In this document: in pieces, positions 2,083 through 18,897 of the stretch
Numbering within the stretch: the first letter of the stretch is position 1
How the letters are laid out: every line of letters begins with the position of its first letter
Source: a virus
DNA length: 29,734 bases
Virus record (IMG/VR): IMGVR_UViG_3300044681_000028
Span: 1-29,734 of that record
Direction: 5' to 3' (one strand)
Position numbers and translations under genes: made by a program
The notes under the pieces: generated by a model
Seen by the model: the letters and a program-made list of their open reading frames with translations, nothing else
Told to the model about the DNA's origin: nothing
The model's database searches: none

Positions 2083-2110
2083 TAAATAGCAAAAAGACGA
2101 AATTGTGCCA
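2083..2110 (-). promoter_or_regulatory. Candidate phage late promoter (two-box element, copy A)
   Basis: On the minus strand the site reads TGGCACAA, then 8 nt, then TTTTGC TATTTA. Read as a promoter this is a -35 TGGCAC, a 16-bp spacer and an extended -10 (TGC-TATTTA). It stands just downstream of a terminator-like hairpin and 13 nt before the ATG at 2069. Five more sites in this genome have the same spacing. The promoter role is inferred. Confidence 0.6.
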
Positions 2111-2114
2111 AACG

Positions 2115-2140
2115 AAAAAGGGTCAGCGTTAGCCGACCCC
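2115..2140 (-). terminator. Intrinsic terminator after the 173-aa structural gene
   Basis: On the minus strand GGGTC-GGC-TAAC-GCT-GACCC folds into a stem (5 bp, one mismatch, then 2 bp) with a small loop, followed directly by TTTTTCGTTT. It sits in the 114-bp gap between the genes ending at 2184 and starting at 2069, immediately upstream of a candidate promoter, so it would separate two late transcripts. Confidence 0.7.
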
Positions 2141-2183
2141 CTTCCAACAGAACAATGAAAAAGAGAAAGTGTGAAGATACGAA

Positions 2184-2705
2184 TTAGTTTGTAATCGCAG
2201 CAACGTCTGCGGCATCAATTGAAAGCATTTGCTCGGCTTCCATTCCGCTAAACGTCAAGCTGTAACCCGAAAGGTCAGCGAAAGCCGTGCCCGTTGCAGA
2301 TGTTCCAGCGTTGAGTTCAAGACCGTTTTGGTAACCGACAACCCAGTAAGAACCATCGTTAGTTTCAACGATAGCCACCAAACGCTGTTGAGCCAATACC
2401 TTGATTTCGTTGCGCTTGTCAACATCCAATTTTGAAAGCACTACAACCACCTCAGGAGTGAAGTAAACCGTTCCGTTCTGACTGTTACCGTTGATGGTTT
2501 CCGTCAAAGAGGAAGTTTCCTTTAGCTGCTCGTACTTATAAAAGGTAGGCGTTCCTGTGATTGAAGTAACCGCTCCAGCAGATACAACAGGTGTCAAAGC
2601 AATGTAATCGTCAAGGTTCGCAAATCTAACGCTCTTCACTCCGCCTACGGCATCGCGGCAATCAAGGTCGAAACCCGTAGTTAGTGCACATCCAGTATAT
2701 GCCAT
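2184..2705 (-). CDS. Structural protein following the capsid, possible tail tube or head-tail protein
   Basis: A 173-aa protein whose opening (GCALTTGFDLDCRDAVGGVKSV) and middle (about residues 75-130: statements such as DVDKRNEIKVLAQQ and SYWVVGYQNGLEL) resemble a protein found next to the capsid gene in many Bacteroidota phages and prophages, usually annotated only as structural. The fold looks like a beta-barrel with one helix, as in tail-tube-like proteins. ATG at 2705 follows an A-rich leader and a stable hairpin at 2727-2748; a terminator-like hairpin follows the stop. Tail tube is my favoured guess because no other tube candidate is evident, but this is not demonstrated. Confidence 0.8.
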   Translation of the reverse strand: MAYTGCALTTGFDLDCRDAVGGVKSVRFANLDDYIALTPVVSAGAVTSITGTPTFYKYEQLKETSSLTETINGNSQNGTVYFTPEVVVVLSKLDVDKRNEIKVLAQQRLVAIVETNDGSYWVVGYQNGLELNAGTSATGTAFADLSGYSLTFSGMEAEQMLSIDAADVAAITN

Positions 2706-2726
2706 GTTTTTAGTTTTTAGAGTGAA

Positions 2727-2748
2727 GGGGAGAGTCGAAGCCCTCCCC
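2727..2748 (-). promoter_or_regulatory. GC-rich hairpin between capsid and next gene
   Basis: On the minus strand GGGGAG pairs with CTCCCC around a short loop containing TTCG. It lies in the 50-nt gap between the capsid stop (2756) and the ATG at 2705. No T-tract follows (the next bases are CTTCACTC), so it is more likely an mRNA 3'-end stabiliser or processing or attenuation hairpin than a full terminator. Confidence 0.5.
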
Positions 2749-2755
2749 GATTAGA

Positions 2756-3754
2756 TTAAAGAGATACAACAGAGATTTGGTCAGGGAACGCAACCTGTGC
2801 GCCAACTGTCAATTCAACCGCAATTTTGAACTTACGGTCGTCCTGAGAGTACCAAGACTCGATGCGTGAAGCATCTTCTTCCAAGTCCATTCCAACGTAC
2901 ATATTGCTGGTACGAGCAAGGTAAACATCGTTAATTGCGCTAAGTCCGCTTGTGGCTTGAATCTTCAAGTTAGTTCCCGGCATAACCATTGACAAAGAGC
3001 CCATTTCAGTTTGGTAGCCTTGAAGCTGACCTCCAGCAGTTACGTAAGATGCGCCAAGACCGTTCTGAATAGCAATCGCCAACGCTCTGAATTTGTCAGC
3101 ACCAACGAACACAACAGCATCGTCGTTTTCGATAACAGCATCAGCAGCCGCTTCGTAAACTCTTTGTACTGCCTCAATCATATTGTTAGCAGTCAAAGCC
3201 GTAGCAAGTGGAGTTCCCGAACCGAAAGAAGCTGTGTTTGCATCGATGTAAGAGCCTCCAAGAATAGCATCACGGAATCCGTTGAAGAATTGGTAGTTAC
3301 CCGACCCAGTTGGAAGGCTTGAAGTAGGTACAGCACCAACAGATTTCCAAATCATCTTCTCCAACTCAGCAGCGATTTTGCTTACCAAGTAGTTAGCGAA
3401 GAACTCCTCGAAAGGGATTGTTTCGTAATGCGCTCCGCTTGGAAGTTGAGTTCTAAGATAGATAGCCTCAAGTTCCTTTGGGCAGAACTCCATATTCAAC
3501 TTAAGTTTAGCTGGGTCGATGAATCTCTGCGTTAGAGTGATGTCTCCATCTTCGTTCCAAGCACATCCGCTTCCATCTTGGAATGTAACGTCAATGTCAG
3601 CTAAGTTGATGGCACTTTTGCCCTTGACTCCTACTTGCTTTTCAACAAGAGCCATTGTTGGCGAAGAAGTTAGAGCCTTCGCGATTAACGGAAAATTCTG
3701 CTCTTCAATGTAAGCCTGAAGTCCGCTTGTTAGTGGTGATGGTGAAAATCCCAT
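2756..3754 (-). CDS. Major capsid protein (HK97-like fold expected)
   Basis: At 332 aa it has the right size and position: directly after protease and scaffold. The N-terminal arm is followed by a central acidic/aromatic region (residues about 95-150) and the C-terminal stretch with VYLARTSNMYVGMDLEEDASRI and WYSQDDRKFKIAVELTVGAQ, a pattern typical of HK97-fold capsids of Bacteroidota phages (P-domain strands ending in a conserved F/Y-x-A-x2-TVG-x-Q). ATG at 3754 has an A/T-rich leader without a Shine-Dalgarno sequence, as is usual in this phylum. The product would be the main shell protein, built with the scaffold at 3776-4357 and probably matured by the protease at 4406-4966. Confidence 0.9.
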   Translation of the reverse strand: MGFSPSPLTSGLQAYIEEQNFPLIAKALTSSPTMALVEKQVGVKGKSAINLADIDVTFQDGSGCAWNEDGDITLTQRFIDPAKLKLNMEFCPKELEAIYLRTQLPSGAHYETIPFEEFFANYLVSKIAAELEKMIWKSVGAVPTSSLPTGSGNYQFFNGFRDAILGGSYIDANTASFGSGTPLATALTANNMIEAVQRVYEAAADAVIENDDAVVFVGADKFRALAIAIQNGLGASYVTAGGQLQGYQTEMGSLSMVMPGTNLKIQATSGLSAINDVYLARTSNMYVGMDLEEDASRIESWYSQDDRKFKIAVELTVGAQVAFPDQISVVSL

Positions 3755-3775
3755 TTTGGTATAATGTTTTTTGGT

Positions 3776-4357
3776 TTATTTCTTGGTGATTGCTCGCATC
3801 TTCTCAACCATCTCGGTGTAGTCGATGCCTTTGTTAAATGGGTTGGCTACCTTCTTTGAAGGCTCTTCCTTTGGAGTTGCTGCCATCTTCTCAACGATGT
3901 CGGTAATTAGTCCAACAGCTTTCTCGATGTCGGTTACCTTCTCGGTCTTGGCGAATTTAGCTTCTGCCATTCTGCTTTCAATCAATTCAGATACAGCAGA
4001 AAGAATGTCGGCTTTGAATCCTTCAGCATCGAACTTCTCCTCACTCGCCATTTCTTCCTCAACTTCTTCTTCTGCTTCTTCCTCAACTGGCTCAGGACTC
4101 ATAATCTCCACGATAACACCGCCTTCAGTTCTTACAACCTCACCGCTTTCGAGTTCATGTTCTCCATCTGGAGCTGGTACGGTTTCGCCATCCTCTCCGA
4201 TAACGGCAACAGATGCACCGATTTCCAAAGCTGGTTCAACTCGGACGATAGTACCGTCCACAAGTTTAGCATCGACAAAAGCCTCTTCGGTTGTCTCGCT
4301 GAAAAGTAGTTTCTTGATTTCGGGCAATTTAGACCCTACAAGTTCTGAAATGTTCAT
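3776..4357 (-). CDS. Acidic scaffolding protein
   Basis: A 193-aa, strongly acidic protein. Residues about 25-95 contain a small beta domain with the pattern VDGTIVRVEPALEIGASV and APDGEHELESGEVVRTEGG. Then comes a Glu-rich run (EPVEEEAEEEVEEE), a helical segment (about 110-160) predicted to form coiled coil, and a basic tail. This architecture is typical of scaffold proteins preceding the capsid gene in Bacteroidota phages. An in-frame upstream extension to 4390 exists, but the ATG at 4357 is preferred because a candidate promoter TATTTA box ends 15 nt upstream. The gene lies between protease and capsid, as expected for an internal scaffold that is cleaved or expelled. Confidence 0.85.
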   Translation of the reverse strand: MNISELVGSKLPEIKKLLFSETTEEAFVDAKLVDGTIVRVEPALEIGASVAVIGEDGETVPAPDGEHELESGEVVRTEGGVIVEIMSPEPVEEEAEEEVEEEMASEEKFDAEGFKADILSAVSELIESRMAEAKFAKTEKVTDIEKAVGLITDIVEKMAATPKEEPSKKVANPFNKGIDYTEMVEKMRAITKK

Positions 4358-4372
4358 GCGTTGTTTTTTTAG

Positions 4373-4400
4373 TAAATAGCAATTATTCAAAGGTGTGCCA
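4373..4400 (-). promoter_or_regulatory. Candidate phage late promoter (copy B)
   Basis: Minus strand: TGGCACAC, 8 nt, AATTGC TATTTA, with the same 8-nt gap as the other copies. It lies in the short gap between the protease stop (4406) and the scaffold ATG (4357), giving an expected leader of under 10 nt. It would give scaffold and capsid their own transcript. Confidence 0.6.
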
Positions 4401-4405
4401 CTTGG

Positions 4406-4966
4406 CTATGCTCTGAGTGCTTTTTCCACCTCTTCGATTATCATCTTGTCTACGTCCATTTGGCGGCTTTCGCTGAACACTCCCTCAACGCTGAACCCTC
4501 TCCACGTTCCTTTCTTAATATCCTCCCAAACCTCATCGTTATCGACTTTGTAACTCACAAACCATGACCCGTTCGGCAGCTTGTCGAATCCCTTTGGCGT
4601 TGGCTTCATCTCGTCAATCAAGAAGGACTCAAACATAAACACGCCTTCTACATCTGTTGAGTGGTCTAAGTTGGTCGCGTTGGTCTTGCCTTCCTTCATA
4701 AACTTGTAGGCTATCTTTCTAATAGCATCCGAGTCAAAGACTACGTAATACTCGCGCCCATCCTCGTCCCTTCGGTATATTGGATAGTCGGCAACCATTG
4801 CCGCTCCGCTTACGATTCTCTTCTCTTCGTTTAGCGCGAACTTGTGCTGCTTATTGAACGCCATCCAATTACGCTCTATGGCTGGATGGTCAACGAGTGA
4901 AATAGCATCGAGACCCGTTTCGTGGTCTTCGTCAATTGTTAGATAGATTACTGGTAGCTTGTTCAT
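4406..4966 (-). CDS. Prohead protease, XkdF-like serine protease
   Basis: A 186-aa protein that starts with the family-typical YLTIDEDHETGLDAISLVDHPAI. A His in NLDHS (about residue 100) and a Ser in TWRGFSVEG (about residue 160) are the likely catalytic pair of the prohead protease fold seen in XkdF/S78-type phage proteases. Such proteases cleave scaffold and capsid arms during prohead maturation. The ATG overlaps the tape measure stop (ATGA) and the next gene is the scaffold, which fits. The catalytic assignment is from pattern only. Confidence 0.85.
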   Translation of the reverse strand: MNKLPVIYLTIDEDHETGLDAISLVDHPAIERNWMAFNKQHKFALNEEKRIVSGAAMVADYPIYRRDEDGREYYVVFDSDAIRKIAYKFMKEGKTNATNLDHSTDVEGVFMFESFLIDEMKPTPKGFDKLPNGSWFVSYKVDNDEVWEDIKKGTWRGFSVEGVFSESRQMDVDKMIIEEVEKALRA

Positions 4967-6693
4967 CCTCCGAATGTTGCTTGTGATTCTATTTGGTTTA
5001 TGTTATTCTGGTTGCCCGTTACTTCTGTCTCCACGACATAGGCTTGAATAGGTGCGAGTTGGGCTTGTTCAACTCCTCCGAGTTCGGTTGTTCCCGCAGT
5101 CGCTTGTTGGATAGCTGGAGCAGTTGCCACTTGTGGAGCGGTTGGCGTTGCCGCACTTCCGCCCGGTACATTGGCAGAGTTTAATGTTGAAACTGCCGAA
5201 GCAATACCAGCAACAACTGCCGCGACCCCCGTAGCTATTGCCACAAGGTTGCCCGGATAAGGTACGCTCTGCGCCTGAGCAATAGCCCCGACTATCGCCT
5301 TTGCTGTGTCGATAGCTATTTGAGCAATGGCTAACGTCTTTTGTAGAACAACCGCCTCGCGAGATTGGCTGCCACTTGCCTCAACGAGTTGATTAATAGA
5401 GTTTAGAACTCCGCCCGTAGCCGTAAGATAGGATTCTTGAAGTTTGACCTTTGCGTCCCTCAGTTCCTTCTCCTTCTTTAAATCCTCATCTCTGAACTTC
5501 TTTCGTAGTTTGGCAAGTGCTTCTTGCTTTGCCCCTTCTATATCTGTCTCTGTGTCCCCAGCTAACCGTGCCATCTCCTCAAGTGACGCGTAATGTTGTT
5601 CGAGTTCAAGGAGTTCGAGTTCTCGTTGTTCCTTTCCAACCTTTGCTAATTCTTGTTGGATGTCGAATAACTCTTTTTCGAGAGCAGCTTGGTTAGTCAT
5701 CTGCTCGGACTTCTGCCCATTTATACGCTCATCCAAATCTGCTAACTCCCCCTTAGCTTGTGCAACAGCAGCCTGTGCCTCTACTGATGTTTTGTTTATT
5801 GCGAGTTCAGCATTGGCAAGGTCTAACTTTCTTTGAAAGATAACCCTTTCCGATTCGCTTTGTTCTTCGAGTATTTTGCCGAGTTTTTCGTTGGCTTCGA
5901 TACGTTCTGCAAGCGTCTTTCTGACATCATCACGAATCTGCCTTTGGTCTTCTGCCTCTTTCTGATAGGTCATCTGAACCAACTTCTGCTGTGCCTCGAG
6001 TTTTATCAGTTCGTTGCGTAGGTTGATAATAGCGTCCGCTTGATTGTATGCCTCTTTGGTTGTTTCGGCAAACGACTTTACGCCTTCTTTGAATGAATCA
6101 ACAACACCCGTTACAGCTTCCTTTGCTTCTTCATATTTCACACCGAGTTCTCCTACACCTTCCGCAACCTCCGCCCAATCGAATGTAAGCACCCCCTCTA
6201 TTATTTTACCAGCACTTCCAGCAATCTCACCCAAGTACTGAACAACAGGAATCGCTCTGTTTTTAACTCCATCTACGAAGTCTGCTATGGCTTGCTTTGG
6301 GTTGTTGAAAGCATCATATAACGCTTCGCCCAAAGGTGCTGCAAGGTCAATCAACTTACGCATGACAATTTCAACGGTAAGCATGACCTTACCGAATCCA
6401 TCTGCAACAGATTGGTTTGAAAGAAATATATCTTTCAGCTTATTAAAAGCCGCCACAATAACCGCAACTACCCCAAGCGATTTGACCAACGAGCCTATCC
6501 CGTTACCAAGAGATTTGATTCCTTTTCCCGCGTTCTTTGCTCCTTTTTCTGCCGCCTCGAAACCAGCCTTGAACTGGTCTCCCATCTCCTTCTGCGTAGC
6601 CTTTACCTTTTCGAGTTCCTCACGTAACGAGATTATCTCATCGCTGGCTTCGCCCGTTTTTACGTCTACCTCTATTGCAACCTTTGTAGCCAT
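4963..6693 (-). CDS. Tail tape measure protein
   Basis: A 576-aa protein with the hallmarks of a tape measure: long helical coiled-coil stretches rich in Lys/Glu/Ala (about 225-430), a hydrophobic segment at about 68-83 (LVKSLGVVAVIVAAF) and another near 475-500 (NLVAIATGVAAVVAGIASAV), and a low-complexity Ala/Thr/Pro/Gln tail. At 576 residues, and assuming the usual 1.5 angstrom per residue, the tail would be short, about 85 nm. The N-terminal start (VAIEVDVKTGEASDEI) is typical of Bacteroidota tape measures. It lies after the fibre gene and before the head protease; in most siphoviruses the tape measure precedes the distal tail genes, so the order is rearranged here. Confidence 0.85.
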   Translation of the reverse strand: MATKVAIEVDVKTGEASDEIISLREELEKVKATQKEMGDQFKAGFEAAEKGAKNAGKGIKSLGNGIGSLVKSLGVVAVIVAAFNKLKDIFLSNQSVADGFGKVMLTVEIVMRKLIDLAAPLGEALYDAFNNPKQAIADFVDGVKNRAIPVVQYLGEIAGSAGKIIEGVLTFDWAEVAEGVGELGVKYEEAKEAVTGVVDSFKEGVKSFAETTKEAYNQADAIINLRNELIKLEAQQKLVQMTYQKEAEDQRQIRDDVRKTLAERIEANEKLGKILEEQSESERVIFQRKLDLANAELAINKTSVEAQAAVAQAKGELADLDERINGQKSEQMTNQAALEKELFDIQQELAKVGKEQRELELLELEQHYASLEEMARLAGDTETDIEGAKQEALAKLRKKFRDEDLKKEKELRDAKVKLQESYLTATGGVLNSINQLVEASGSQSREAVVLQKTLAIAQIAIDTAKAIVGAIAQAQSVPYPGNLVAIATGVAAVVAGIASAVSTLNSANVPGGSAATPTAPQVATAPAIQQATAGTTELGGVEQAQLAPIQAYVVETEVTGNQNNINQIESQATFGG

Positions 6694-7268
6694 TAAGCTG
6701 GGATAAGTCTGTAGTTAACGTAAACTGTAATGTCGGAATCTCCAGCCGTTGGGTTTCCGCCAGCAACATACACATGAAGGTCTGAGTTTGTAAGCAATTG
6801 CGTGTCCGATGCCAAAGAAGCGGTTGATTGCTCCCCCACCCTATGGCTTGTCGTTGTAGCATTTAGACAGGCATTTATTCTATATTGAACAGAACTTGCA
6901 CCGCTACATATTAGACTAACAGTTGTATTGGTTGCGTATGCTGCGCTGTTGAAGTCAATCTTAACACTTGCAGAAACGACCTCAATAGCGTAACCAGCAA
7001 CCGCACCGACAATAGTGATAGGTGTTGAGTTCAGCGTTAGAACGTCTGCGCTTGCAATGGTCAAAGAAGCAGAGCCGCCCAAACAAGTAACCCCGTTGTC
7101 GTCCCGTGACCAAAGAACGCCATCGGCTTGATTAAAGAATAGTTCCCCTTTGTATATGTCCGTAGCTATCCAAGTGCCGTCCGTGTGGTCATTTGAACTT
7201 GGTACTGTTGGAACGGTTGCCGTTATGGTTGACCTTTTAATTTTAATTCGTGAGTCTTGTGTTGCCAT
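6693..7268 (-). CDS. Short tail fibre or receptor-contact protein
   Basis: A 191-aa protein. Its N-terminus IKIKRSTITATVPTVPSS, followed by KGELFFNQADGVLWSRDDNG, is the attachment module found at the start of many phage fibres and tropism determinants. The rest is beta-rich and ends in a compact region (STASLASDTQL, VYVAGGNPTAGDSDITVYVN) resembling a trimeric head domain. The ATG at 7268 overlaps the stop of the large Tal-like gene (TAATG) and lies 24 nt after a candidate late promoter. A role in host contact is inferred from the N-terminal module and position. Confidence 0.75.
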   Translation of the reverse strand: MATQDSRIKIKRSTITATVPTVPSSNDHTDGTWIATDIYKGELFFNQADGVLWSRDDNGVTCLGGSASLTIASADVLTLNSTPITIVGAVAGYAIEVVSASVKIDFNSAAYATNTTVSLICSGASSVQYRINACLNATTTSHRVGEQSTASLASDTQLLTNSDLHVYVAGGNPTAGDSDITVYVNYRLIPA

Positions 7269-10111
7269 TATTGTTCGCCTCCTTCTATTGTATAAATAGC
7301 TATTTCGCTAAATTGTGTCTGTACGATGTCCTCGCCACCGTCAACCGTGAAGATGTTAGTGCCTCCATTCAATGCCCGGACCTCATTCAATCCACCTTCC
7401 AACACCTCCACGTTGTCCTGTTCCTTGCCGTTGATGTAGGTAGTGTTTGACTGGGTAACAATTACACCATTGGTATTGATGAGTTGGACGTTGTGAAGCC
7501 CTCCAATTACCTCATTGTCATTGCCGAATATGGTAATGTTCTTCGAGCCTTCGCCTATTGTGTTTCGGCTTCCTACCACTTTGAAAGCTGTAACGCTCTG
7601 CCCTACGTTATTGTCCGCTCCGCTCACCTTTCCTTGAAACGGAGGATACTTGTTTCCGTTTGTTTTTATTTCGGTGGAAGGAGATGGCATCTTTTCCTTA
7701 CCTAAATAACCCCCAGCGTTCAAACTTCGGCTTCCCTTTTTGAAGGTAACAGCCTCCTTAATCTTGATGAGTTCCACCTTCGTTAACCCCTCTTTGAACG
7801 GGTTGTAATTCATTACTTTGTTGAGCCTCCAATAGCTGTTATCTATTACTATTTGGTCGCGGAAATCTAAGGTGTTGATGTCGGTCGGTTCAAGGTAGAA
7901 CATCGCAGTCATTACCTTCGAGTCCTTATCCGTTACCTCGTTTATGTAATTGCGGTGGTAGATGTTGTAAAGGTTCGCGTTCGTTACTTGGAGCGTTCCC
8001 GTGTATCCATTCGCTTGGTAATAGAGTTCGTAAGGTAGCCCGAAGTTGATGTCGATGGTTGGCGTTATTGGCTCGTCCCAATGTCCAGCGTATGGATAAG
8101 TTGAGTTGTAAGTGTCTTGTAGGTTTATTGTTCTTCGATGTACCCAAGTCGGGTCGCTTGGTATTAGACCGCCATAGTAAAGAATCCGAATATTTGCGTC
8201 CGTTGGCTTTGCTCCTTCTTCAATGTCAGCGTCCCAAATTGCTGGGATAATTCGATTCGATGGGTTGTCATTGACTAATGGCGAAGGGGAAAAAACAACC
8301 TCTACCTCTTTGGAACTCTGCACAAAGTCGTTATCTACCTCTATCCGCGAACGTCCATAAGCGTGTCCTCTGTTTGACTGATAACGCTCGTTATAATAGT
8401 CCCCATCCTCCGAATATGTGTAGATGTATTCCCTATCGGTAAGAACTCCCAACGGTTCAAGGGTAATGTCTCTGTCCCTTGCCAGCTTGTACGTCCAGTC
8501 CTTTATCCCCCCCTGAGAGTAGAATGTGTCGCGGGTTTCAATGAGCAGATTCTTCTCGTTGTTCGGGTCTACCTCAACGTAAAGATTGAACATTTTAAAT
8601 AAAGACGTTAAGAACTCGCTCATTTCAACATCGGGCAAGTTATCCGTCATGTCCACAAACTCGCCTTCGGTAATTCCTTCGTTCAAGTATTCATTGTAGA
8701 ACTCACCGCCCACAATGTCGAAGTCAAGATAATAGGGGATATTAGGCGGTGTCACATTACCCGTGTCGGGATGAAACAGAATGAAATAGTTAGTGTAACC
8801 GATTCCCGGTTCGTCAGCTATCAAATCAACATAATACTCATCGCCCTCTAACGCTTGTACGTTTGTAGCCGTTATGACGTATGTATTCTGCACCACGTTT
8901 TGAGAAAGGAACGGTGGTGTTGTATAGCCAGACGTTAGTCCAAGTGTAAATCCCCAGTCCGTTTCTGCCATTACTTCCACCGAGTTGTTGCGTTTTCTCA
9001 TTATCCTCAGCTTTCCTGAGAATTGATTTCGTCCTGACTCTCCAGTTTGCGCTCTGAGTATTGCAATAGAACCCCATTCTGTACACCTAAGGTCAACCGA
9101 TGCAGTTAGGTCGTAGAATCCAGTCGCTTCACTATCCACAAGCCATTTGTAATTTTGAGAAGCTGGAGAGAAAGGGTCTGACGGAACTAAGTAGTTTCCA
9201 GTTACAGACTGTCCATTGTCGAAGAATGGAGTAACTTCATTTGAATAACAAACTCTTGGCGTTGAATTTGGATTCACCCAAAAGCCCTGATTCCCAACTA
9301 CGATAGCTGGGTTGGTTGTTGCATTTATAATGGCATTTTGAGTAACCGTTTTCCCTACTCTGTACAATTTCTCTTGTAGGTTGTCCTCTGAAATTGTCAA
9401 AGGCTTAGTTACTGGGACAATCAATCTATTGAATAGAACTGAGTCAAAGAATGAACTCTGATAAGTGAACCCCGCAAAGTCGAAAATCTTGTTGAGTATC
9501 GTCTTAGCGTAGTAAGCGGGTCGCAAATCTCCGACCTCATAAATTCTATTTCCTTGATTTGTGAACTCCGCACCTCCGCCCCAATCAATTAACGGGTAAA
9601 CGTAACCGTCTCCGACTGGTGCGCTCCAGCTATCGACTTGGTTTTGATAGGTGTAATAGTGGTCAAACTCTGAGAAGTCTAAGTAATTGACATTGCTCTC
9701 ATCCACTCCGCTAAGTTCCTTGTCTCCAAGAACCGAGAAGATGTTGAGCAACTTACCGATAAATACCACCTCGTAGGTGTAGGCGTGTCCCTTTTGGACA
9801 ATCTTCCGAAGTTGGACAACCCCAGCCATTACCTCCACCCCGTCAGCTATTACTCGCGCCTCCGCTTTCTTATTAGGGTTGAAATTAACGCTAATGTTAG
9901 TAGTGTTAGCATCGTAGTTGTTTGAGATGTTAACGTCGTATATATGCCCGAAGAGTTCATCGTTGTTCTTCGTTGCCGGGCATTTGATGGTCTTGGAGTA
10001 TTCCGTGCTTCTCTTCTCAGGGTTACGGATGTCAGCAATGCCGTAGTTGAAGGAGAAATCGAACCCCTCGAATACGTCTAAACGTCTGCCCTCTATTCTA
10101 ACTTCAACCAC
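7268..10111 (-). CDS. Large tail tip protein (Tal-like) with C-terminal beta-solenoid
   Basis: A 947-aa protein, the largest gene. The N-terminal 450 residues (beginning VEVRIEGRRLDVFEGFDFSFNY) look like a tail-hub/Tal domain as seen after Dit-like proteins in Bacteroidota phages. Residues about 450-780 continue the baseplate-type region. The C-terminal 150 residues are Asn/Gly/Val-rich short repeats (VVGSRNTIGEGSKNI, IFGNDNEVIGGLHNV), a left-handed beta-solenoid pattern like trimeric adhesin heads. Start is GTG at 10111, overlapping the previous stop. The last 20 codons contain a candidate late promoter for the next gene. The likely role is tail tip hub plus host surface contact. Confidence 0.8.
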   Translation of the reverse strand: MVEVRIEGRRLDVFEGFDFSFNYGIADIRNPEKRSTEYSKTIKCPATKNNDELFGHIYDVNISNNYDANTTNISVNFNPNKKAEARVIADGVEVMAGVVQLRKIVQKGHAYTYEVVFIGKLLNIFSVLGDKELSGVDESNVNYLDFSEFDHYYTYQNQVDSWSAPVGDGYVYPLIDWGGGAEFTNQGNRIYEVGDLRPAYYAKTILNKIFDFAGFTYQSSFFDSVLFNRLIVPVTKPLTISEDNLQEKLYRVGKTVTQNAIINATTNPAIVVGNQGFWVNPNSTPRVCYSNEVTPFFDNGQSVTGNYLVPSDPFSPASQNYKWLVDSEATGFYDLTASVDLRCTEWGSIAILRAQTGESGRNQFSGKLRIMRKRNNSVEVMAETDWGFTLGLTSGYTTPPFLSQNVVQNTYVITATNVQALEGDEYYVDLIADEPGIGYTNYFILFHPDTGNVTPPNIPYYLDFDIVGGEFYNEYLNEGITEGEFVDMTDNLPDVEMSEFLTSLFKMFNLYVEVDPNNEKNLLIETRDTFYSQGGIKDWTYKLARDRDITLEPLGVLTDREYIYTYSEDGDYYNERYQSNRGHAYGRSRIEVDNDFVQSSKEVEVVFSPSPLVNDNPSNRIIPAIWDADIEEGAKPTDANIRILYYGGLIPSDPTWVHRRTINLQDTYNSTYPYAGHWDEPITPTIDINFGLPYELYYQANGYTGTLQVTNANLYNIYHRNYINEVTDKDSKVMTAMFYLEPTDINTLDFRDQIVIDNSYWRLNKVMNYNPFKEGLTKVELIKIKEAVTFKKGSRSLNAGGYLGKEKMPSPSTEIKTNGNKYPPFQGKVSGADNNVGQSVTAFKVVGSRNTIGEGSKNITIFGNDNEVIGGLHNVQLINTNGVIVTQSNTTYINGKEQDNVEVLEGGLNEVRALNGGTNIFTVDGGEDIVQTQFSEIAIYTIEGGEQ
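7293..7320 (-). promoter_or_regulatory. Candidate phage late promoter (copy C), inside the 3' end of the tail tip gene
   Basis: Minus strand: AGACACAA, 8 nt, AATAGC TATTTA; its first box is the AGACAC variant shared with the copy at 13022-13049. It overlaps the last codons of the 947-aa gene and precedes the fibre ATG at 7268 by 24 nt. This is the weakest match in its TTTTGC part, but the spacing and TATTTA are intact. Confidence 0.45.
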
Positions 10112-12682: not shown

Positions 12683-13013
12683 TCTTTATCTGTTCTATTT
12701 TCTTGATTGCCCAGTTAACGCCCTCATCTCCGCCCCAAGCAAGCCACATCAAACGTCCGCAACCTTCGCCCAGCTTTCGGGTAGAGTTGCGTTTGTGTCG
12801 GATAAATGCAGCCATTCGCTCAATGGTTTCTAAACTGATAGGTTCACGGTTTGCTAATTGGTTAGCCCTTGCCTTTCCAACGGCAGTACCGCATCCTTTC
12901 CATCCGTTTTTCTCCGCCCAATTTAGAGCAGTTTTGGCGTTATCGCTTGCGGCTTTCGGGTAATCCGTGTAAGCCTCTTGCATCCGCCATATTTTGTTCA
13001 GTCTTTCAAGCAT
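12672..13013 (-). CDS. Small conserved phage protein with a GTAVGxARANQLANREPIS domain
   Basis: Residues about 30-105 (pattern WGTAVG/ARANQLANREPISLETIERM...GCGRLMWLAWGG) form a small helical domain that I recognise from phage head or capsid-associated proteins and sometimes from fusions to proteases; the biochemical role is unknown. The reading frame is open to an ATG at 13139, but that part encodes an odd repeated peptide (MAFMAFMA) over a 9-bp repeat. I prefer the ATG at 13013 (113 aa) because a candidate late promoter ends 8 nt upstream, implying a leaderless or nearly leaderless mRNA; 13022 is also possible but overlaps the -10 box. It sits between the large terminase and the tail genes. 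Confidence 0.72.
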   Translation of the reverse strand: MLERLNKIWRMQEAYTDYPKAASDNAKTALNWAEKNGWKGCGTAVGKARANQLANREPISLETIERMAAFIRHKRNSTRKLGEGCGRLMWLAWGGDEGVNWAIKKIEQIKNED

Positions 13014-13021
13014 CTCAATCA

Positions 13022-13049
13022 TAAATAGCGAATTTACACTTTTGTGTCT
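13022..13049 (-). promoter_or_regulatory. Candidate phage late promoter (copy D)
   Basis: Minus strand: AGACACAA, 8 nt, ATTCGC TATTTA, the last A being shared with an ATG at 13022. It lies downstream of the large terminase and would head the tail operon. The first box is the AGACAC variant also seen in copy C. Confidence 0.55.
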
Positions 13050-13139
13050 GAGCATAAAAAAAGCCAGTTGGCACTTGGCACAAGTGGCATTAGTGGCATT
13101 TCGCAAATCTCTTTGTGCCATAAATGCCATAAATGCCAT
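13050..13139. repeat. Array of TGGCA half-sites, direct then inverted
   Basis: This gap between the terminase stop and the next gene holds TGGCA at 13069, 13076, 13085 and 13094 on the plus strand (steps 7, 9, 9), followed by TGCCA at 13116, 13125 and 13134 (steps 9, 9). CACTTG-gca-CAAGTG at about 13073-13087 is a perfect inverted repeat. A run of seven T on the minus strand follows. It could be a packaging (pac) or protein-binding site; nothing in the sequence decides this. Confidence 0.5.
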
Positions 13140-14324
13140 CTACCGTATTGTGTACTTTCCAGCGTTCGCCTTCAGCTTCTCCATTGCCACGTAGCGGAGC
13201 GCATCGAGTGCGTGGTTGTTGTCATCTTCGGGTTGGTTCGTTACTTGGTTGGTCTTGTAGTCCCGTTTCCATGCGTAGTTCCTCAGTTCTCGGATGATGT
13301 TAACCGAGTCTTGGTGTACCATTATTTGAACGCTCTTTAGCTTATCGATGCCTGACCTTACGCTGTCCTGACCTTTGGCAACTGGTCGGATTCTGAAGCC
13401 AGCCCTTCGGATTTCTTCGATGCTCTTGGGCTCTGCTGAATCGGCTATGATTTCGTCCGACCTTTGTAGCCCGCACTTCCTTGCAATGTCTGCGTTCGTT
13501 AACCCTGTTTCGTAAAGCACTTCACGAACCCATAATTTACCTTCTTGATAGAGTACCTCCACGAGTGCAGTCGGGTCGTTCGTAAACCCGAAGTCGAGTC
13601 CGTATGCTTTCCACTTGTACCCGGTCGGAAACTCTTTGGTTTCTTGCCAGTTCTCGTATATCGCGCCTTCTCTTCTTGACCTTTGCCCAAGTCCGTAAAC
13701 CTTCCACTTGTATTCGTCAGCCGTGCCTCGTGATACGTTAAAAGGTGTCGGCTCGTAGCTGTTTATCTTGTCGCGGATGTGCTGGTCGAGGAAGGTGTTG
13801 TCCAGCATCGTGGAATGTATAAGCACCACATCATCCCGTTTCAGAACGTTGTCGTATATCCAATGCTCGTCTGTGGAAGGGTTGTAGTCGAGAATCCACT
13901 TGCCTTTGCATCGCTGCTCTAATTGGTCGAAATCATCCTTGCTTGTTTCAATGGCTTCATTCAACCAAAAGTAATCTGTTTCGATACCGTGAAGCTTCTG
14001 AGAATCGTCAAGCCCGTAGAACTCAAACGTAGACCCGTGAGCAGAGTAAATTAAATCAGTCTTGTTAAACGCCTCATCCTCCCAAACCTCAAGGCTCTGG
14101 AGTACTTTCTTGAACGTGTCGAGTACCGTTGGTTTAATCCACGTCCTCCTAAACCTCGCAATTGCGATTCTCTTCGGTTCTTGTAATCCTGTAAGGTAGA
14201 TGGCTTGACAGATGCTCCACGTTTTCGAGGAACGGCTTCCACCCTCAAGCACAATTCCCCGAATGGATTTATCATTAAGGGCTTGCCACAGGTCATCAAA
14301 TACGCCAGTTCCTTCAATTTTCAC
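13140..14324 (-). CDS. Terminase large subunit
   Basis: The packaging motor and nuclease, 394 aa. The ATPase half shows a Walker A variant GGSRSSKT (28-35) and Walker B YFWLNE (118-123). The RNase H-like nuclease half shows acidic residues in YGLDFG (D244), IIADSAEPKS (D295) and DDNNHALDALRY (368-374). It belongs to the PBSX/Terminase_3 type. Start is GTG at 14324, overlapping the stop of the preceding small gene (GTGA). The circular assembly with no defined end fits a headful packaging enzyme. It follows the small terminase candidate with one small gene between. Confidence 0.95.
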   Translation of the reverse strand: MKIEGTGVFDDLWQALNDKSIRGIVLEGGSRSSKTWSICQAIYLTGLQEPKRIAIARFRRTWIKPTVLDTFKKVLQSLEVWEDEAFNKTDLIYSAHGSTFEFYGLDDSQKLHGIETDYFWLNEAIETSKDDFDQLEQRCKGKWILDYNPSTDEHWIYDNVLKRDDVVLIHSTMLDNTFLDQHIRDKINSYEPTPFNVSRGTADEYKWKVYGLGQRSRREGAIYENWQETKEFPTGYKWKAYGLDFGFTNDPTALVEVLYQEGKLWVREVLYETGLTNADIARKCGLQRSDEIIADSAEPKSIEEIRRAGFRIRPVAKGQDSVRSGIDKLKSVQIMVHQDSVNIIRELRNYAWKRDYKTNQVTNQPEDDNNHALDALRYVAMEKLKANAGKYTIR

Positions 14325-14506
14325 GTAAGGTTATTGGTTGACTTTTTGGTAGGTTTCGTCAGTCTTTGACCTGACTGCTTATTAGCTTCTGACATGAACA
14401 CCGTCACCTTCTGCGTTGGGCAGCTCATCTTGTGATAACCGCAACCTCCGCAGTATTCACATTTGATGTTGACGTTACCGTTCTTGATGTTCGTTGCTTT
14501 CTTCAC
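14321..14506 (-). CDS. Small zinc-finger-like protein between the terminase genes
   Basis: A 61-aa protein. A CxxCGGCGxxxxxC pattern (CEYCGGCGYHKMSC) around residues 16-29 suggests one metal site. The N- and C-termini are basic, with Lys/Thr/Asn-rich tails, so nucleic acid binding is possible. The GTG start at 14506 overlaps the preceding TGA, and the stop overlaps the terminase GTG, so translation is likely coupled. No family was recognised. Confidence 0.65.
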   Translation of the reverse strand: MKKATNIKNGNVNIKCEYCGGCGYHKMSCPTQKVTVFMSEANKQSGQRLTKPTKKSTNNLT

Positions 14507-14904
14507 TTCTTCTCAGGTCGATGTATTACTATCTCTACCTTGTCAGGCTTGCCTCCGTTAACCGTCTGCTCAACCTCTTCTTTCGGCTTGCCGTAGACCC
14601 TATCGAACAGAACGTCCAATATGTGGATGCTTCCTTTCTCGTAGTCTCGTTGGGCTTTCTTCGCAATAAGAGCAATCCAAAACGGCAACTGGTCGTTCTT
14701 TGCCAACTCCACCAACTCGCTTCTTGACTTGCCGAGTACGTTCTTGATGATGTCCTGAACCTGACCCTTCGACAGCTTGACATTATGCTCATCAAGGAAG
14801 TGTTCCTTTAGTAGCGTTTCCACGTTTTTCGGTCTCCCTTTCGGGTTGCCGCTCTGTCCTTTCTTGAAGGGTTTTAGGTTCTCAGGTGTTCCGCCTTCGT
14901 TCAT
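14503..14904 (-). CDS. Terminase small subunit candidate (DUF5681-like)
   Basis: A 133-aa protein. The N-terminal motif FKKGQSGNPKGRPK is the signature of a family found immediately before large terminase genes, assigned as a DNA-recognising small subunit. Residues 25-130 are helical with a basic middle. The ATG at 14904 overlaps the stop of the methyltransferase gene. Its position one small gene upstream of the large subunit supports the assignment. Confidence 0.75.
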   Translation of the reverse strand: MNEGGTPENLKPFKKGQSGNPKGRPKNVETLLKEHFLDEHNVKLSKGQVQDIIKNVLGKSRSELVELAKNDQLPFWIALIAKKAQRDYEKGSIHILDVLFDRVYGKPKEEVEQTVNGGKPDKVEIVIHRPEKK

Positions 14905-16388
14905 TGTTCAATCGCTGTTTTAACGTACTCTTTTCCGTTTATCTTAACGCTCAAAGTCGGGTCGAGTTTCGTCATTCTGTCGATAATTACTTGGCAGTAT
15001 TTAGGGTCAAGTTCCATGCCATAGCATTTGCGTTTCAGTTGATGGGCGGCTACCATTGTTGAGCCTGAGCCTAAGAAGAAGTCTACCGTTAAGCCATCTT
15101 CGGGACAACTGCTTTTAATTGCCCGTTCGCATAGTGGTATGGGCTTTGGTGTTGCGTGTCCTCCTTCAGTTCCGTTTTTAACGTGTCGGCTAAAATGCCA
15201 AACGTTATTCATATTGTCGTGCGTGTTGTCAAAGTACGCTCGGGTTGAATAGTATTCTTTTTTTAACGCATCGTATTCTTTTTTTAACGCATCGTATTCT
15301 TTGTGAAACGCATCGCCCTTTGCTTCGTTTCTCATTGAATTATAGTGCTCTCGTGTTGGAAAATGCCACTGACTTGTTGTAAAGTAATGCGAAGCAGATG
15401 TTTTTCCTGTAATTTCTATAACCTTCTTGACGTTCCACCCAAGCTTATTTTTTTGCGTATTTAAATATTCTCTTATTGGTTCAAACCCTTCAAAATAATT
15501 GTGTGAATTATTGTTAAAACCTTGAACCCCGAGCATAATAAAAAGGCATTTTTCATCAGCCGTTGCGTAACTTCTTGTATTGTCTGAATTTTGGCTTTGC
15601 CCGTGTCCCTTGTCCCAAGTTATCAAATTTCTGAATGTTGCTTTTTCGTTCTTTATGTAAGGCTTCAGAACTCCGCTATAAATATCCATCAAAGGTTCAT
15701 CAATACCCCAGCAATACCAACTACCGTTTTCCTTCAAATGAGTAAACTGCAAGGCTATCCACTCTTTATTGAACTCCAGTAAATCCGCATAGTTTAGATT
15801 GTCATTAAGTACCCCCTCGCTTTCTTTTTTCATTCCGTAGGGCGGGTCATTGTGGGCGAGGTCAGCCTTCTCTCCATTCATCAGCTTTGCCACTTGGTCA
15901 GAGTCCGTTGAATCTCCACAAAGCAAACGGTGTTCTCCTATCTCGATAAGGTCGCCAAGAACAACGTCTGTCTTTAGTTCTTCGGGCACTTCGTAATCGT
16001 CCTCTTCTGCTTCCAGTTCTTCTGCTTTCCAATTATCAGGAGTGTCAAGCCCCCACTCGTTCAGTTCTTCAGCATCCCAAGTATTCGCCAGTTCGTCCCA
16101 GTCCCATTCCCCGAATCCTACGTTGTCTTTGATGATGAACTCGCGCTGTTTCTCCTCTGACCAATCAACAACCTCTACGGGTACTTCTGACCATCCAGCT
16201 TCTTGCATTGCCTTGAGCCGCATATTGCCGCCCAAGACTATCATCTCTGTGTTAACGACTATCGGTCTGACGTTAGCCATCTCAGGAAAGTCCCGAAGGC
16301 TCTGAACCAGCTTCTTAAACTTCTCGTCTTTGATGTATCTCGGGTTCTCCGAGTTTGGTCTAACCTTGCTTATTGCTATTGTTTCCAT
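14901..16388 (-). CDS. ParB-like domain fused to N6-adenine/N4-cytosine DNA methyltransferase
   Basis: A 495-aa protein. Residues 1-115 are a ParB/Srx-like domain (IAISKVRPNSENPRYI, GGNMRLKAM at 53-61). The methyltransferase domain follows: motif IV is DPPY (180-183) and motif I is FLGSGSTM (437-444) near the C-terminus, the order of the beta class. Residues 361-377 include a duplicated YDALKKE heptad encoded by 21-bp repeats. This fusion is common near phage terminases and probably protects phage DNA from restriction; the ParB part may target it. ATG at 16388 overlaps the preceding small gene. Confidence 0.9.
   Translation of the reverse strand: METIAISKVRPNSENPRYIKDEKFKKLVQSLRDFPEMANVRPIVVNTEMIVLGGNMRLKAMQEAGWSEVPVEVVDWSEEKQREFIIKDNVGFGEWDWDELANTWDAEELNEWGLDTPDNWKAEELEAEEDDYEVPEELKTDVVLGDLIEIGEHRLLCGDSTDSDQVAKLMNGEKADLAHNDPPYGMKKESEGVLNDNLNYADLLEFNKEWIALQFTHLKENGSWYCWGIDEPLMDIYSGVLKPYIKNEKATFRNLITWDKGHGQSQNSDNTRSYATADEKCLFIMLGVQGFNNNSHNYFEGFEPIREYLNTQKNKLGWNVKKVIEITGKTSASHYFTTSQWHFPTREHYNSMRNEAKGDAFHKEYDALKKEYDALKKEYYSTRAYFDNTHDNMNNVWHFSRHVKNGTEGGHATPKPIPLCERAIKSSCPEDGLTVDFFLGSGSTMVAAHQLKRKCYGMELDPKYCQVIIDRMTKLDPTLSVKINGKEYVKTAIEQ
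15253..15315 (-). repeat. Three 21-bp tandem repeats inside the methyltransferase gene
   Basis: The units 15253-15273 and 15274-15294 are identical (plus strand tattctttttttaacgcatcg); the third, 15295-15315, differs in three bases. They encode the YDALKKE repeat in a probable helical insertion. Each complete unit carries a run of seven T, so the copy number is likely to vary between isolates. Confidence 0.85.
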
Positions 16389-16506
16389 CTAACCTTCGTT
16401 TTATTTCGATTGCGACCCCCGCTTTCTCCGCTTCCTTTTTGGAGTCGTAGATGCAGTCTCCGTTTCCCCACCTCCATTTTCCGTTATCGCATTGTCTTGC
16501 TGGCAT
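16360..16506 (-). CDS. Small overlapping protein, 48 aa
   Basis: Starts at an ATG inside the preceding gene and reads PARQCDNGKWRWGNGDCIYD followed by SKKEAEKAG. The pattern QC-x-NGKWRxGNG-x-C-x-(Y/F)D-(S/T)KK-x-AE resembles small phage proteins I have seen elsewhere, so the frame looks genuine. It overlaps the 124-aa gene by 106 nt in another frame, and the methyltransferase by 29 nt. The function is unknown; two Cys may bind metal or form a bond. Confidence 0.6.
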   Translation of the reverse strand: MPARQCDNGKWRWGNGDCIYDSKKEAEKAGVAIEIKRRLDGNNSNKQG

Positions 16507-16775
16507 TGGTAAAAGTTTAAAAGTGCAACACTCATCAGTTGAGGAGTTCGACCACAAGTGAAACAGACCTTAGCTTTCGGGTCGATGTAACTCCACGCTT
16601 CTTGGTAGAGTTTCTGTTCATCTCGTGTTATCCGTCCCGAATACCGCCCCTGTCCCATCATCGTGATTTGGTCGAGCCTCTCAGCTATAAATAGCAAAAC
16701 TTCGTTTTTGTCCATGCTTAAAATTTCATGCCACCCGTTTTCCTTCAGGTAGTCGGTTATAGTTCGAACCTCCAC
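16401..16775 (-). CDS. Protein with a Cys motif and basic tail, unknown role
   Basis: A 124-aa protein with a helical N-terminal half and the segment KAKVCFTCGRTPQLMSVALL around residues 68-87, then a low-complexity, Lys/Arg-rich tail (PKRKRRKRG). The tail is co-encoded with the 48-aa gene in another frame and may simply be read-through of shared sequence. Start is GTG at 16775, overlapping the preceding gene by 19 nt. A copy of the late promoter element lies inside at 16688-16714, so a shorter product from M34/M35 (about 16676) is conceivable. Function is unknown. Confidence 0.65.
   Translation of the reverse strand: MEVRTITDYLKENGWHEILSMDKNEVLLFIAERLDQITMMGQGRYSGRITRDEQKLYQEAWSYIDPKAKVCFTCGRTPQLMSVALLNFYQCQQDNAITENGGGETETASTTPKRKRRKRGSQSK
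16688..16714 (-). promoter_or_regulatory. Candidate phage late promoter (copy E), within a gene
   Basis: Minus strand: TGGACAA, 8 nt, TTTTGC TATTTA. The TTTTGCTATTTA part is identical to copy A and the spacing is the same, but the first box deviates and the site is in coding sequence, so chance cannot be excluded. It would drive the methyltransferase and terminase genes. Confidence 0.4.
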
Positions 16776-17008
16776 ATCAATCTCTCAAATAACACACTCA
16801 GCAAAGGAACGTAAATAAGAGCCTCAGGGTCGTTGACGCAATAAAGAACCCCGAACCAAAAAGACATACAAAGCCGACAGTCCAACGGTTTAAACGAATA
16901 ACTCTCGTCCATCCCAATCCACTTTTTAATAAGTAGGTCGATTGCCAGTACCTCAATCCAAAGGTAAGCGGCAACGCTCGCGGATAATGCGCTCAAGATG
17001 TATAGCAT
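16757..17008 (-). CDS. Small membrane protein
   Basis: An 83-aa protein with two hydrophobic segments: residues 1-27 (LYILSALSASVAAYLWIEVLAI) and about 48-75, separated by the motif KPLDCRLCMSFWFG. The P-L-x-C-x-x-C-x-S-F-W-x-G pattern recurs in small phage membrane proteins of unknown role. The ATG at 17008 lies 56 nt inside the preceding sigma-like gene. Confidence 0.65.
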   Translation of the reverse strand: MLYILSALSASVAAYLWIEVLAIDLLIKKWIGMDESYSFKPLDCRLCMSFWFGVLYCVNDPEALIYVPLLSVLFERLMWRFEL

Positions 17009-17477
17009 AGTAATTATCTCTTAGTTGTTCAAGTGCTTTGACTACTGTGTTTCCGATTGACTTGTAAGGAATATCGACCTTCTTGCCGACCTTTCGATAG
17101 CTTCCTTCTTCCAGCCACAATTTAAGTACCTCGCGGTCGTACCAATGCAGCTCGTCCATCAGGGTTTCCAAAAGTGCAATGTCGTCCTCTTTCTCCCAGT
17201 CGTAGTCCTCTCGCTCGTGGTCAACCTTCTTGTGATTGTGTAGGTCGTAGAGTTTTGAGAAGCTGGAGCGTTTACTGGTAGCCATTGTCATCATCGTCCG
17301 AACTACGTAGAATCTCAGATAGCCACCTTCGTTTATCTGTTGCCACTTCTCTTCGGGCATCTCCAGCAGAAGAAGAACCACCTCTTGTATAAGGTCATCC
17401 GGGCAATTACATAGCTTCTGAGCGAGTTCGTATAACTCTTGGTCAGATAGTAGGTCGATTGCCGCTTGTTCTTTCAC
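16953..17477 (-). CDS. Sigma-factor-like transcription regulator
   Basis: A 174-aa protein. Residues 20-75 (DDLIQEVVLLLLEM, GGYLRFYVVRTMMTM) resemble sigma region 2. Residues 112-155 (YDREVLKLWLEEGSYRKVGK, KVDIPYKSIGNTVVKALEQL) form a region-4-type helix-turn-helix. An acidic linker lies between them, as in ECF-type factors. The size fits the ECF class. GTG start at 17477. A repeated two-box promoter-like element in this genome makes it the natural candidate for a late sigma factor; that link is inferred. It could also be a terminase-like or other HTH protein with a sigma-related fold. Confidence 0.72.
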   Translation of the reverse strand: MKEQAAIDLLSDQELYELAQKLCNCPDDLIQEVVLLLLEMPEEKWQQINEGGYLRFYVVRTMMTMATSKRSSFSKLYDLHNHKKVDHEREDYDWEKEDDIALLETLMDELHWYDREVLKLWLEEGSYRKVGKKVDIPYKSIGNTVVKALEQLRDNYYAIHLERIIRERCRLPLD

Positions 17478-17487
17478 GGGCTTAAAT

Positions 17488-18039
17488 CTACAAACAATTT
17501 TTCTTATACCAATCTTGCGTAACCCTTATATACAAATCCTCCTCAGTTTTAAATCGGTTCGGCTTCTCTTTCACTACCGCCTTGATAAGATTGTTTTCAA
17601 GTAGGTAGGTGTATGCTAAGTAATACGGAGCAGCAAACGGAAGTTTGCCGTCTCTTTTAATCCATCCAAGTATCAACTCATGCGCTTCTTGCGGAGTGAT
17701 AGGTTTCTTTTTAAACTCAGGCAACTGAATAGGGTTATAACCATGATTCGCTTTGCCTTGCCGCTTGTGTTCCTTGTAAGCCGTCAGCACCTGACCGACC
17801 ACGTTGACAGAAAGGTGTTGTCCAAAGGTGGAAGGGTCTACTCGTTTGCCATCTAAGTACAGTTCTCTTTTGACTGCCATCGTAAACGCTTCTTTTACTT
17901 GCGCCCCCGTGTATCTGTACTCCGAGTTGATGAAGTCCTGAATCATCTTGATCAGACCCATTCCCTGAGGCGAGTTCGGGAAATCTGCGCAGCCTATCAG
18001 CTTAGGCAATTCGGTAATTGTTGTTATCAGGTTGTACAT
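17488..18039 (-). CDS. Conserved protein of the replication block, unknown role
   Basis: A 183-aa protein. It contains INSEYRYTGAQVKEAF and KRVDPSTFGQHLSVNVVGQV around residues 37-85, then a Lys-rich linker and a helical C-terminal half ending IRVTQDWYKKN. The pattern is familiar from Bacteroidota phages next to the initiator-like gene, but I know no assigned function. It may be a helicase loader or replisome accessory factor by position. The ATG at 18039 overlaps the initiator gene by 38 nt. GATC at 17950, one of only three in the window, is in this gene. Confidence 0.7.
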   Translation of the reverse strand: MYNLITTITELPKLIGCADFPNSPQGMGLIKMIQDFINSEYRYTGAQVKEAFTMAVKRELYLDGKRVDPSTFGQHLSVNVVGQVLTAYKEHKRQGKANHGYNPIQLPEFKKKPITPQEAHELILGWIKRDGKLPFAAPYYLAYTYLLENNLIKAVVKEKPNRFKTEEDLYIRVTQDWYKKNCL

Positions 18040-18730
18040 CGAAATTAAATTTAGCGTTGGCGGAATCCTCTCCGTAGAGTGTCTTGTGCGTGTTGTAGTC
18101 GTTTATCATCTGCATGAACTCGCGGGCTTCCTTTTCCTCTTGTGTTTCCAAAGATGATGATTTGTTTTTTAACTCCTCCGAAATCCATTGGTTCAGTTTC
18201 GGCTGCCACTTGTGGATGCGTTGCCCGTTTATCTCCCAGCCTTTGGATTCGTAGTTATCGTGGAATCGCTGGGCAAGGTCTTCAACTGGAAATGATACCG
18301 ATGCAATGCCGCGAGTAAACAAGTTATTACATATCTCCTTTTCGACTTCTTCGCGTGTGGGCGTATTACTTACACTCCCATTAACATTAGCATTAACATT
18401 TACATTATCATTAACACTTACATTAACACTATCAGGTTTTTTGGGTTCTGAAATAACCGACTGGGTTTTTTGGGTTTTCGGTCTACCGCCTTTTGCCCCA
18501 TTCTCTCGTGCCCTTTCCGCCCGTTCCTCGTATTTCACAAGGTCGCGTTTCAAACTCTGCTTGATTGGAATGAAGCACATCTTGGTTATCTTGTCAGGTG
18601 CTTCGGGGTTAAGGTCGTTGACGTATCGAAATAGATGCTTGGCAAGTCTGCCAGCTTCTTCGTCCGTCAATTCCTCAAATGATTCTAACCAGTCGCAATA
18701 AGCTACAAAGGATTTCTTGTCTTTCGCCAT
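18002..18730 (-). CDS. Replication initiator-like protein (DUF6291 / O-like organisation)
   Basis: A 242-aa protein. The N-terminal domain (residues 1-85: KKSFVAYCDWLESFEELTDE, GRLAKHLFRYVNDL, CFIPIKQSLKRDL) resembles DUF6291-type phage proteins, followed by ENGAKGGRPK, a low-complexity linker of alternating Asn and Val (about 110-135), and a C-terminal helical domain with FHDNYESKGWEINGQRIHKW. This arrangement parallels phage replication initiators. The linker is encoded by 12-nt A/T-rich repeats at about 18370-18432 that could be iterons. I chose ATG at 18730; an upstream extension to 18769 has no support. The structured 175-bp leader lies upstream. Confidence 0.7.
   Translation of the reverse strand: MAKDKKSFVAYCDWLESFEELTDEEAGRLAKHLFRYVNDLNPEAPDKITKMCFIPIKQSLKRDLVKYEERAERARENGAKGGRPKTQKTQSVISEPKKPDSVNVSVNDNVNVNANVNGSVSNTPTREEVEKEICNNLFTRGIASVSFPVEDLAQRFHDNYESKGWEINGQRIHKWQPKLNQWISEELKNKSSSLETQEEKEAREFMQMINDYNTHKTLYGEDSANAKFNFDVQPDNNNYRIA
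18366..18432 (-). repeat. Iteron-like A/T-rich repeat inside the initiator gene
   Basis: On the minus strand GTTAATG recurs four times, with variants such as GTAAATG and GCTAATG, in a roughly 12-nt period. It encodes the Asn/Val linker. Repeats within an initiator gene are the arrangement of the lambda origin inside gene O. An origin role here is inference. Confidence 0.5.
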
Positions 18731-18869
18731 GATAAAAAGAAAGGAGGTCGGGTTGACAGCCCGAAACAAAGTGAGCCGACAAGGTAGCTGCGACCTCTGT
18801 TACTTCCTCCTGTGTTTGGTGTGTTTATCATTCCTTGCCATTATCGAACGCTTGTCAGGCGTTCATTAG
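18731..18869 (-). promoter_or_regulatory. Structured leader upstream of the initiator gene
   Basis: The gap holds several pairing segments, given on the plus strand: GAACGC (18846-18851) with GCGTTC (18859-18864); GAGGTCG (18744-18750) with CGACCTC (18791-18797); AGGAGG (18742-18747) with CCTCCT (18806-18811); and a local hairpin TCGGG-ttgacag-CCCGA (18748-18764) that competes with the long pairing. A 13-codon ORF (MARNDKHTKHRRK) runs 18841-18800. This could be a cis-acting regulatory RNA, an attenuator or part of the origin. Confidence 0.45.
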
Positions 18870-18897
18870 TAAGTAGCAAAATTAACAATTTGTGCCA
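18870..18897 (-). promoter_or_regulatory. Candidate promoter (copy F) upstream of the initiator leader
   Basis: Minus strand: TGGCACAA, 8 nt, TTTTGC TACTTA. The same stretch also matches the host consensus (TTTTG-N22-TAATTTTG), so it might be recognised by either polymerase form. It follows the C5 methyltransferase stop (18906) and would start the leader at about 18862. Confidence 0.5.

Follow-up and report, generated by a model that had tools for sequence, protein, structure and literature searches.

The window, that is, the whole stretch of DNA analysed here (29,734 nt), comes from the virus record IMGVR_UViG_3300044681_000028. Its two ends (1-1240 and 29467-29734) share 8 nt and, when joined, give one 687-aa portal-like ORF; since this ORF is uninterrupted in relatives, the contig probably represents a whole genome, circularly permuted. 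The host is probably a member of the Bacteroidota, judging from the promoter type and from the terminase relatives, which are found in Pontibacter, Adhaeribacter, Flavobacteriales and Bacteroidales records. The recognisable genes are borne by the minus strand, and the same strand carries all six copies (P1 to P6) of a two-box element. The features discussed below are:

2083-2110, minus strand: predicted late promoter P1, TGGCACAATTTCGTCTTTTTGCTATTTA, 13 nt before the ATG at 2069
2115-2146, minus strand: terminator-like hairpin with a T run, directly upstream of P1 (MFE -22.3 kcal/mol, z -4.4)
4373-4400, minus strand: predicted late promoter P2, TGGCACACCTTTGAATAATTGCTATTTA, 15 nt before the ATG at 4357
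7293-7320, minus strand: predicted late promoter P3, AGACACAATTTAGCGAAATAGCTATTTA, 24 nt before the ATG at 7268
13022-13049, minus strand: predicted late promoter P4, AGACACAAAAGTGTAAATTCGCTATTTA, 8 nt before the ATG at 13013
16688-16715, minus strand: late promoter candidate P5, ATGGACAAAAACGAAGTTTTGCTATTTA, covering the first ten codons of ORF 16401-16715
16953-17477, minus strand: putative ECF-like sigma factor, 174 aa, with regions 2 and 4 (profiles and AlphaFold fold match)
18870-18897, minus strand: predicted late/autoregulatory promoter P6, TGGCACAAATTGTTAATTTTGCTACTTA, with the TACTTA variant
21441-21471, minus strand: predicted host-type early promoter, TTGGATATTCAAAACAATTGTTTTATATTTG, TTG-N20-TATATTTG
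23758-23788, minus strand: predicted host-type early promoter, TTGAATATTCAAAACAATTATTTTATATTTG, TTG-N20-TATATTTG

All six copies were found where the original prediction had placed them. In the whole window, ACA-N15-TA(T/C)TTA occurs six times on the minus strand and not once on the plus strand, and the fuller consensus of the six copies is WGRCACAA-N8-WWTTGCTATTTA. The 8-nt spacing, predicted to be invariant, holds in all six, but the gap introduced into the 16688 copy was an error: this copy aligns ungapped as ATGGACAA, with box 1 starting from 16715. Four copies stand 8-24 nt before gene starts, as had been proposed. The base A is found at +7 past TAYTTA at 6/6 window sites and at 91% of 100 distinct clade A sites.

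The element is far too frequent to be a product of chance. With up to three mismatches allowed, the fuller pattern matched the six sites and no others (shuffle mean 0.03; none of 100 shuffles reached six). Since this pattern was built from the six sites themselves, the simpler ACA-N15-TA[TC]TTA was tested as well; in 1000 order-3 Markov sequences it occurred 0.41 times on average and never more than three times, against six observed. Random sequence, the guard suggested with the prediction, thus puts the expectation at 0.03-0.4. When the gap between ACA and TA[TC]TTA was scanned from 8 to 23, a gap of 15 gave six matches and all others gave 0-2.

The element does not fall into the standard promoter classes. 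The Bacteroidota primary-sigma pattern TTG-N18..21-TAnnTTTG is absent from the six sites and has two matches elsewhere; none of the six is among the consensus matches to the E. coli-type sigma-70 promoter (TTGACA-N16..18-TATAAT) in 1-20000; the GG-GC distance is wrong for a sigma-54 (-24/-12) promoter; and no RNA polymerase gene that could serve T7-like promoters was recognised among the ORFs scanned. The claim that the element differs from the host-type TTG-N20-TAnnTTTG of the early promoters is borne out: TTG-N20-TATATTTG occurs exactly twice, both times in the early region. In both early promoters (21441-21471 and 23758-23788) the boxes are separated by sequence that contains one and the same near-palindrome (AAAACAATTGTTTT-like), which might be an operator; a 61-aa Cro/C1-like HTH protein is encoded at 20349-20534.

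Conservation was followed in ~120 viral loci retrieved with the major capsid candidate and the terminase as queries. In dozens of these relatives the box sequences recur at corresponding places along the genes, whereas the 8-nt spacer between them has drifted. Upstream regions were taken from homologues of window genes, so that loci were not picked by motif, and the element was found in 12/12 distinct regions for the P1 gene, 16/16 for the P3 gene and 20/20 for the P4 gene, compared with 0/17, 1/17, 2/25, 0/16, 0/19, 0/54, 0/29 and 0/49 for eight other gene families. A blind IMG/VR scan with GRCACAA-N12-GCTATTTA found at least 80 loci. Among the 80 listed, 62 are relatives of the phage, and 71 of the 74 sites in these listed relatives stand before an ATG; the other 18 look like chance background. 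The element is strand-specific, and relatives have it before the same genes.

The individual sites lie in different contexts. The hairpin directly upstream of P1 was absent from the output of a terminator scan and was revealed by folding; in relatives it is exchanged for unrelated hairpin sequences. The region upstream of P4 in the window itself folds no better than shuffles, and relatives have clear hairpins upstream of the P4 equivalent. The element can follow an interchangeable terminator hairpin, forming a terminator-promoter module. P2, kept at the same position in relatives, precedes the gene with its ATG at 4357, which in turn precedes the major capsid candidate. P3 sits within the 3' end of a 947-aa ORF, where its box codons are frozen (ACA 16/16, GCT 16/16, ATT 18/18), synonymous positions included, and the flanking codons vary. 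P4 lies directly past the terminase gene, and an equivalent post-terminase site is present in other clades. Between the terminase gene and P4 (13049-13139) there are dense direct and inverted TGGCA/TGCCA repeats, which many relatives lack or have replaced.

P5, upstream of the methyltransferase and terminase genes, is the weakest of the six because the site is also coding; the codons CTA (31/31) and TTT (31/34) are conserved there, a weaker constraint than at P3. A single protein, encoded at 14901-16388, has matches to ParB-like partition families as well as to those of DNA methyltransferases. P6 is located ~140 nt before a DUF6291/primosome-like gene, at the head of an operon made up of the DUF6291 gene, ORF 17488-18039 and the sigma gene. 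Its TACTTA variant is retained in relatives even when the downstream gene is swapped. RNA started at the predicted P6 +1 would begin with a hairpin, AACGC...GCGTT (18838-18864), whose stem is kept in relatives with different loops; it is a possible 5' stabiliser or operator. A conserved 13-codon ORF (MARNDKHTKHRRK, 18800-18850), possibly a leader peptide, follows P6 in relatives that retain the DUF6291 gene.

The likely reader of P1-P6, judged from profile matches and the modelled fold, is the product of ORF 16953-17477. It matched TIGR02937 (sigma70-ECF) with an E value of 2.2e-8 and 33.9 bits, below the curated cut-off of 42.9, and Pfam Sigma70_r4_2 with an E value of 0.013 and 15.6 bits, below the cut-off of 25.7. 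Neither curated family score is reached, and by its sequence the protein is a distant ECF relative, outside the curated family; its best profile matches are Bacteroidota ECF sigmas. Searched against PDB by phmmer, the sequence alone gave no meaningful match, and its identity came from profile and structure: the profile of its homologues (alignment A1) matched 9n9q, the ECF sigma RpoE, with an E value of 1.6e-4. Among the 21 members of this alignment, 19 matched TIGR02937 at E<=0.1 (best 8e-13), 11 the PHROG "RNA polymerase sigma factor" and seven Pfam Sigma70_r2. The AF2 model (pLDDT 86.5, pTM 0.46) has sigma factors as its top PDB fold rows, with region 4 superposing at 1.5-2 A; the whole-chain rmsd is large because the relative placement of the two domains is not confidently predicted. 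ECF sigmas were defined as having region 2 and region 4 only, ~170-200 aa and no long region 1 or 3. The phage protein has this architecture: it is 174 aa long, and solved sigmas are matched in region 2 by its helices 2-67 and in region 4 by its helices 94-166. A tblastn search of 50,697 deposited phage genomes with four queries found no relative of the sigma. The sigma gene is overlapped at its 3' end by a gene for an 83-aa protein (16757-17008) that probably spans the membrane. This protein is not recognisable as an anti-sigma factor, and the small genes at this position seem to differ in relatives.

Sigma homologues are encoded upstream of the terminase in several deep terminase clades, with 16-30% identity in the distant ones, and four or five sigma-bearing lineages have their own two-box versions. 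For example, directly past the terminase gene, clade C has TGTACAA or TATACAA-N14-TATTTA and clade B has ACAYCAAACC...TATATTTA; clade D has AACAA-N14-TATTTA past the terminase, recurring further downstream. At most clade C and D sites the ATG lies 5-8 nt past the -10 box. Three copies of ACAAA...GTATATTTAC are present in L174, a locus of a Bacteroidales MAG that has the sigma and was left out when the box versions were defined. In sigma-bearing loci the matches number 119 on the coding strand versus 10 on the reverse, and those just before a start codon 102 versus 1.

Among distant terminase relatives, the exact-spacing motif was found near a start in 3/17 loci with the sigma versus 0/17 sigma-less loci with at least 5 kb upstream, which is not significant (p 0.23, phylogeny uncorrected). 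The relaxed-spacing motif, whose spacing was set after clade B had been inspected, co-occurs with the sigma in 13/17 versus 1/17 loci (p 6e-5, again uncorrected for phylogeny). The most divergent sigma loci (L082, L084, L111, L118) had no convincing site, and the Bacteroides phages with the closest terminase (BC679P3, and the half of SJC10 that was examined) had neither sigma nor motif. A blind search for exact two-word repeats in each distant locus was too noisy to be of use. One may tentatively envisage an old phage sigma/promoter system that diversified in several deep lineages of uncultured Bacteroidota phages, its region 4 changing in step with the -35 box; the late mRNAs of this system would be leaderless or nearly so.

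Other readings of the element have to be weighed. The sites might be promoters of a host alternative sigma of the ECF type that the phage exploits, its own sigma-like protein doing something else. Bacteroidota encode several ECF sigmas, seven of them in F. psychrophilum (PMC9723704), and the phage protein is nearest to Bacteroidota ECF profiles. This reading is nevertheless unlikely: the boxes change together across phage clades, each with its own sigma homologue; the sole mapped ECF-type promoter class of F. psychrophilum has a CGT -10 box, unlike GCTATTTA (PMC9723704); and the IMG/VR matches listed outside the phage group looked like background.

A very improbable alternative is that the sites are operators at which an activator or repressor of the phage acts together with the host primary sigma. 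The host -7 element TAnnTTTG is not in register at any of the six sites, element orientation strictly follows the genes, and the second box lies 5-24 nt before ATGs with A preferred at +7. Two boxes at fixed spacing could also be a bipartite binding site, and several HTH proteins are encoded by the phage, but the boxes and their spacing resemble -35 and -10 elements. It is scarcely credible that the element acts in RNA, as a translation or processing signal in the leader. Its closeness to start codons, in a phylum without Shine-Dalgarno signals (PMC6847099), would suit such a role, whereas the box-to-ATG distance is variable (8-24 nt in the window), P3 and P5 coincide with coding sequence and P6 is kept though its downstream gene is swapped. 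Furthermore, P1 is immediately preceded by terminator hairpins, so that box 1 would be present in little of the RNA.

A phage-specific promoter class, as first proposed, is the best reading of an element that is strand-specific, has fixed spacing, stands before the same genes in relatives, is of non-host type and can follow terminator hairpins. What the proposal overlooked is the probable recognition factor, the sigma at 16953-17477, and the autoregulatory sense of the 18870 site. P1-P6 are probably late promoters read by host core RNA polymerase with the phage ECF-like sigma, host promoters starting the early genes; the analysis establishes the sites with their conservation, the sigma-type fold and the co-occurrence of sigma and sites, and promoter activity, sigma-site pairing, timing and start sites are what we infer. 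The two host-type promoters, read by the host sigma, would drive early transcription, and read-through would lead to sigma synthesis. The sigma would then redirect host RNA polymerase to the six late promoters, region 4 contacting the -35 box WGRCACAA and region 2 melting the -10 box GCTATTTA; transcription would start seven bases on, at the A. Firing P6 would transcribe the sigma's own gene, and since P6 is upstream of the DUF6291 gene, ORF 17488-18039 and the sigma gene, positive feedback is predicted. Firing P1-P5 would serve the packaging, head and tail genes, P5 to P1 being spread through the methyltransferase/packaging, tail and head genes.

The conserved A at +7 is suggestive of the expected place of +1. 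If it is the +1, the leaders would be 2-18 nt in the window and ~0-2 nt at most clade C and D sites, so the original description of the late transcripts as nearly leaderless is plausible. Such transcripts would contrast with a phylum where most mRNAs carry leaders: flavobacterial mRNAs are mainly leadered (PMC6847099; PMC9723704), with 5.5% leaderless in F. psychrophilum (PMC9723704).

For a group of small Bacteroidota phages known here from metagenomes only, the analysis provides a full scheme of early-to-late transcription that can be tested. The natural series of sigma/promoter pairs could show how region 4 selects the -35 box. To our knowledge, standard promoters fail in Bacteroidota; the pairs could be used as orthogonal expression parts in these bacteria. 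The motif together with the sigma also offers a way of recognising such phages in metagenomic data.

Phage sigma-dependent late promoters are marked by the repeated occurrence of one non-host consensus ahead of late genes in a phage that encodes a sigma, and the window, with its putative sigma, shows this arrangement. The closest experimental precedent is Salmonella phage 7-11, in which the sigma SaPh711_gp47 reads eight bipartite late promoters, GTAAtg-(16)-aCTA, before late genes, early genes being transcribed by the host primary sigma (PMC8948821). Common to both are a lytic-phage sigma, predicted here, that redirects host core RNA polymerase, and bipartite late promoters. In contrast to 7-11, the consensus here is WGRCACAA / GCTATTTA, the genome is much smaller and one-directional, the host is a presumed member of the Bacteroidota, the sigma is nearest to ECF profiles and the system is known from sequence. 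The phiEco32 sigma gp36 recognises the single-box promoters tAATGTAtA, and no region 4 homology is reported for it (PMC8948821); the regulatory logic of a phage sigma for middle and late genes is the same, whereas the phage studied here has two boxes and a region 4. With Bacteroidota ECF sigmas (TIGR02937; the GFO_1088/PG0214 family NF058625; Sig70_bacteroi1, TIGR02985) the phage protein shares two-domain size and fold, but it scores below their curated cut-offs, no adjoining anti-sigma was recognised, and the mapped host ECF class differs by its CGT -10 box (PMC9723704). Bacteroidota primary sigma promoters (TTTG / TAnnTTTG) are represented by the two in the phage early region, whereas the six late sites have no -7 element and a much shorter box-to-box distance. 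By analogy, the system appears to work like late transcription in 7-11 and phiEco32, with a consensus unrelated to theirs and in an uncultured phage group.
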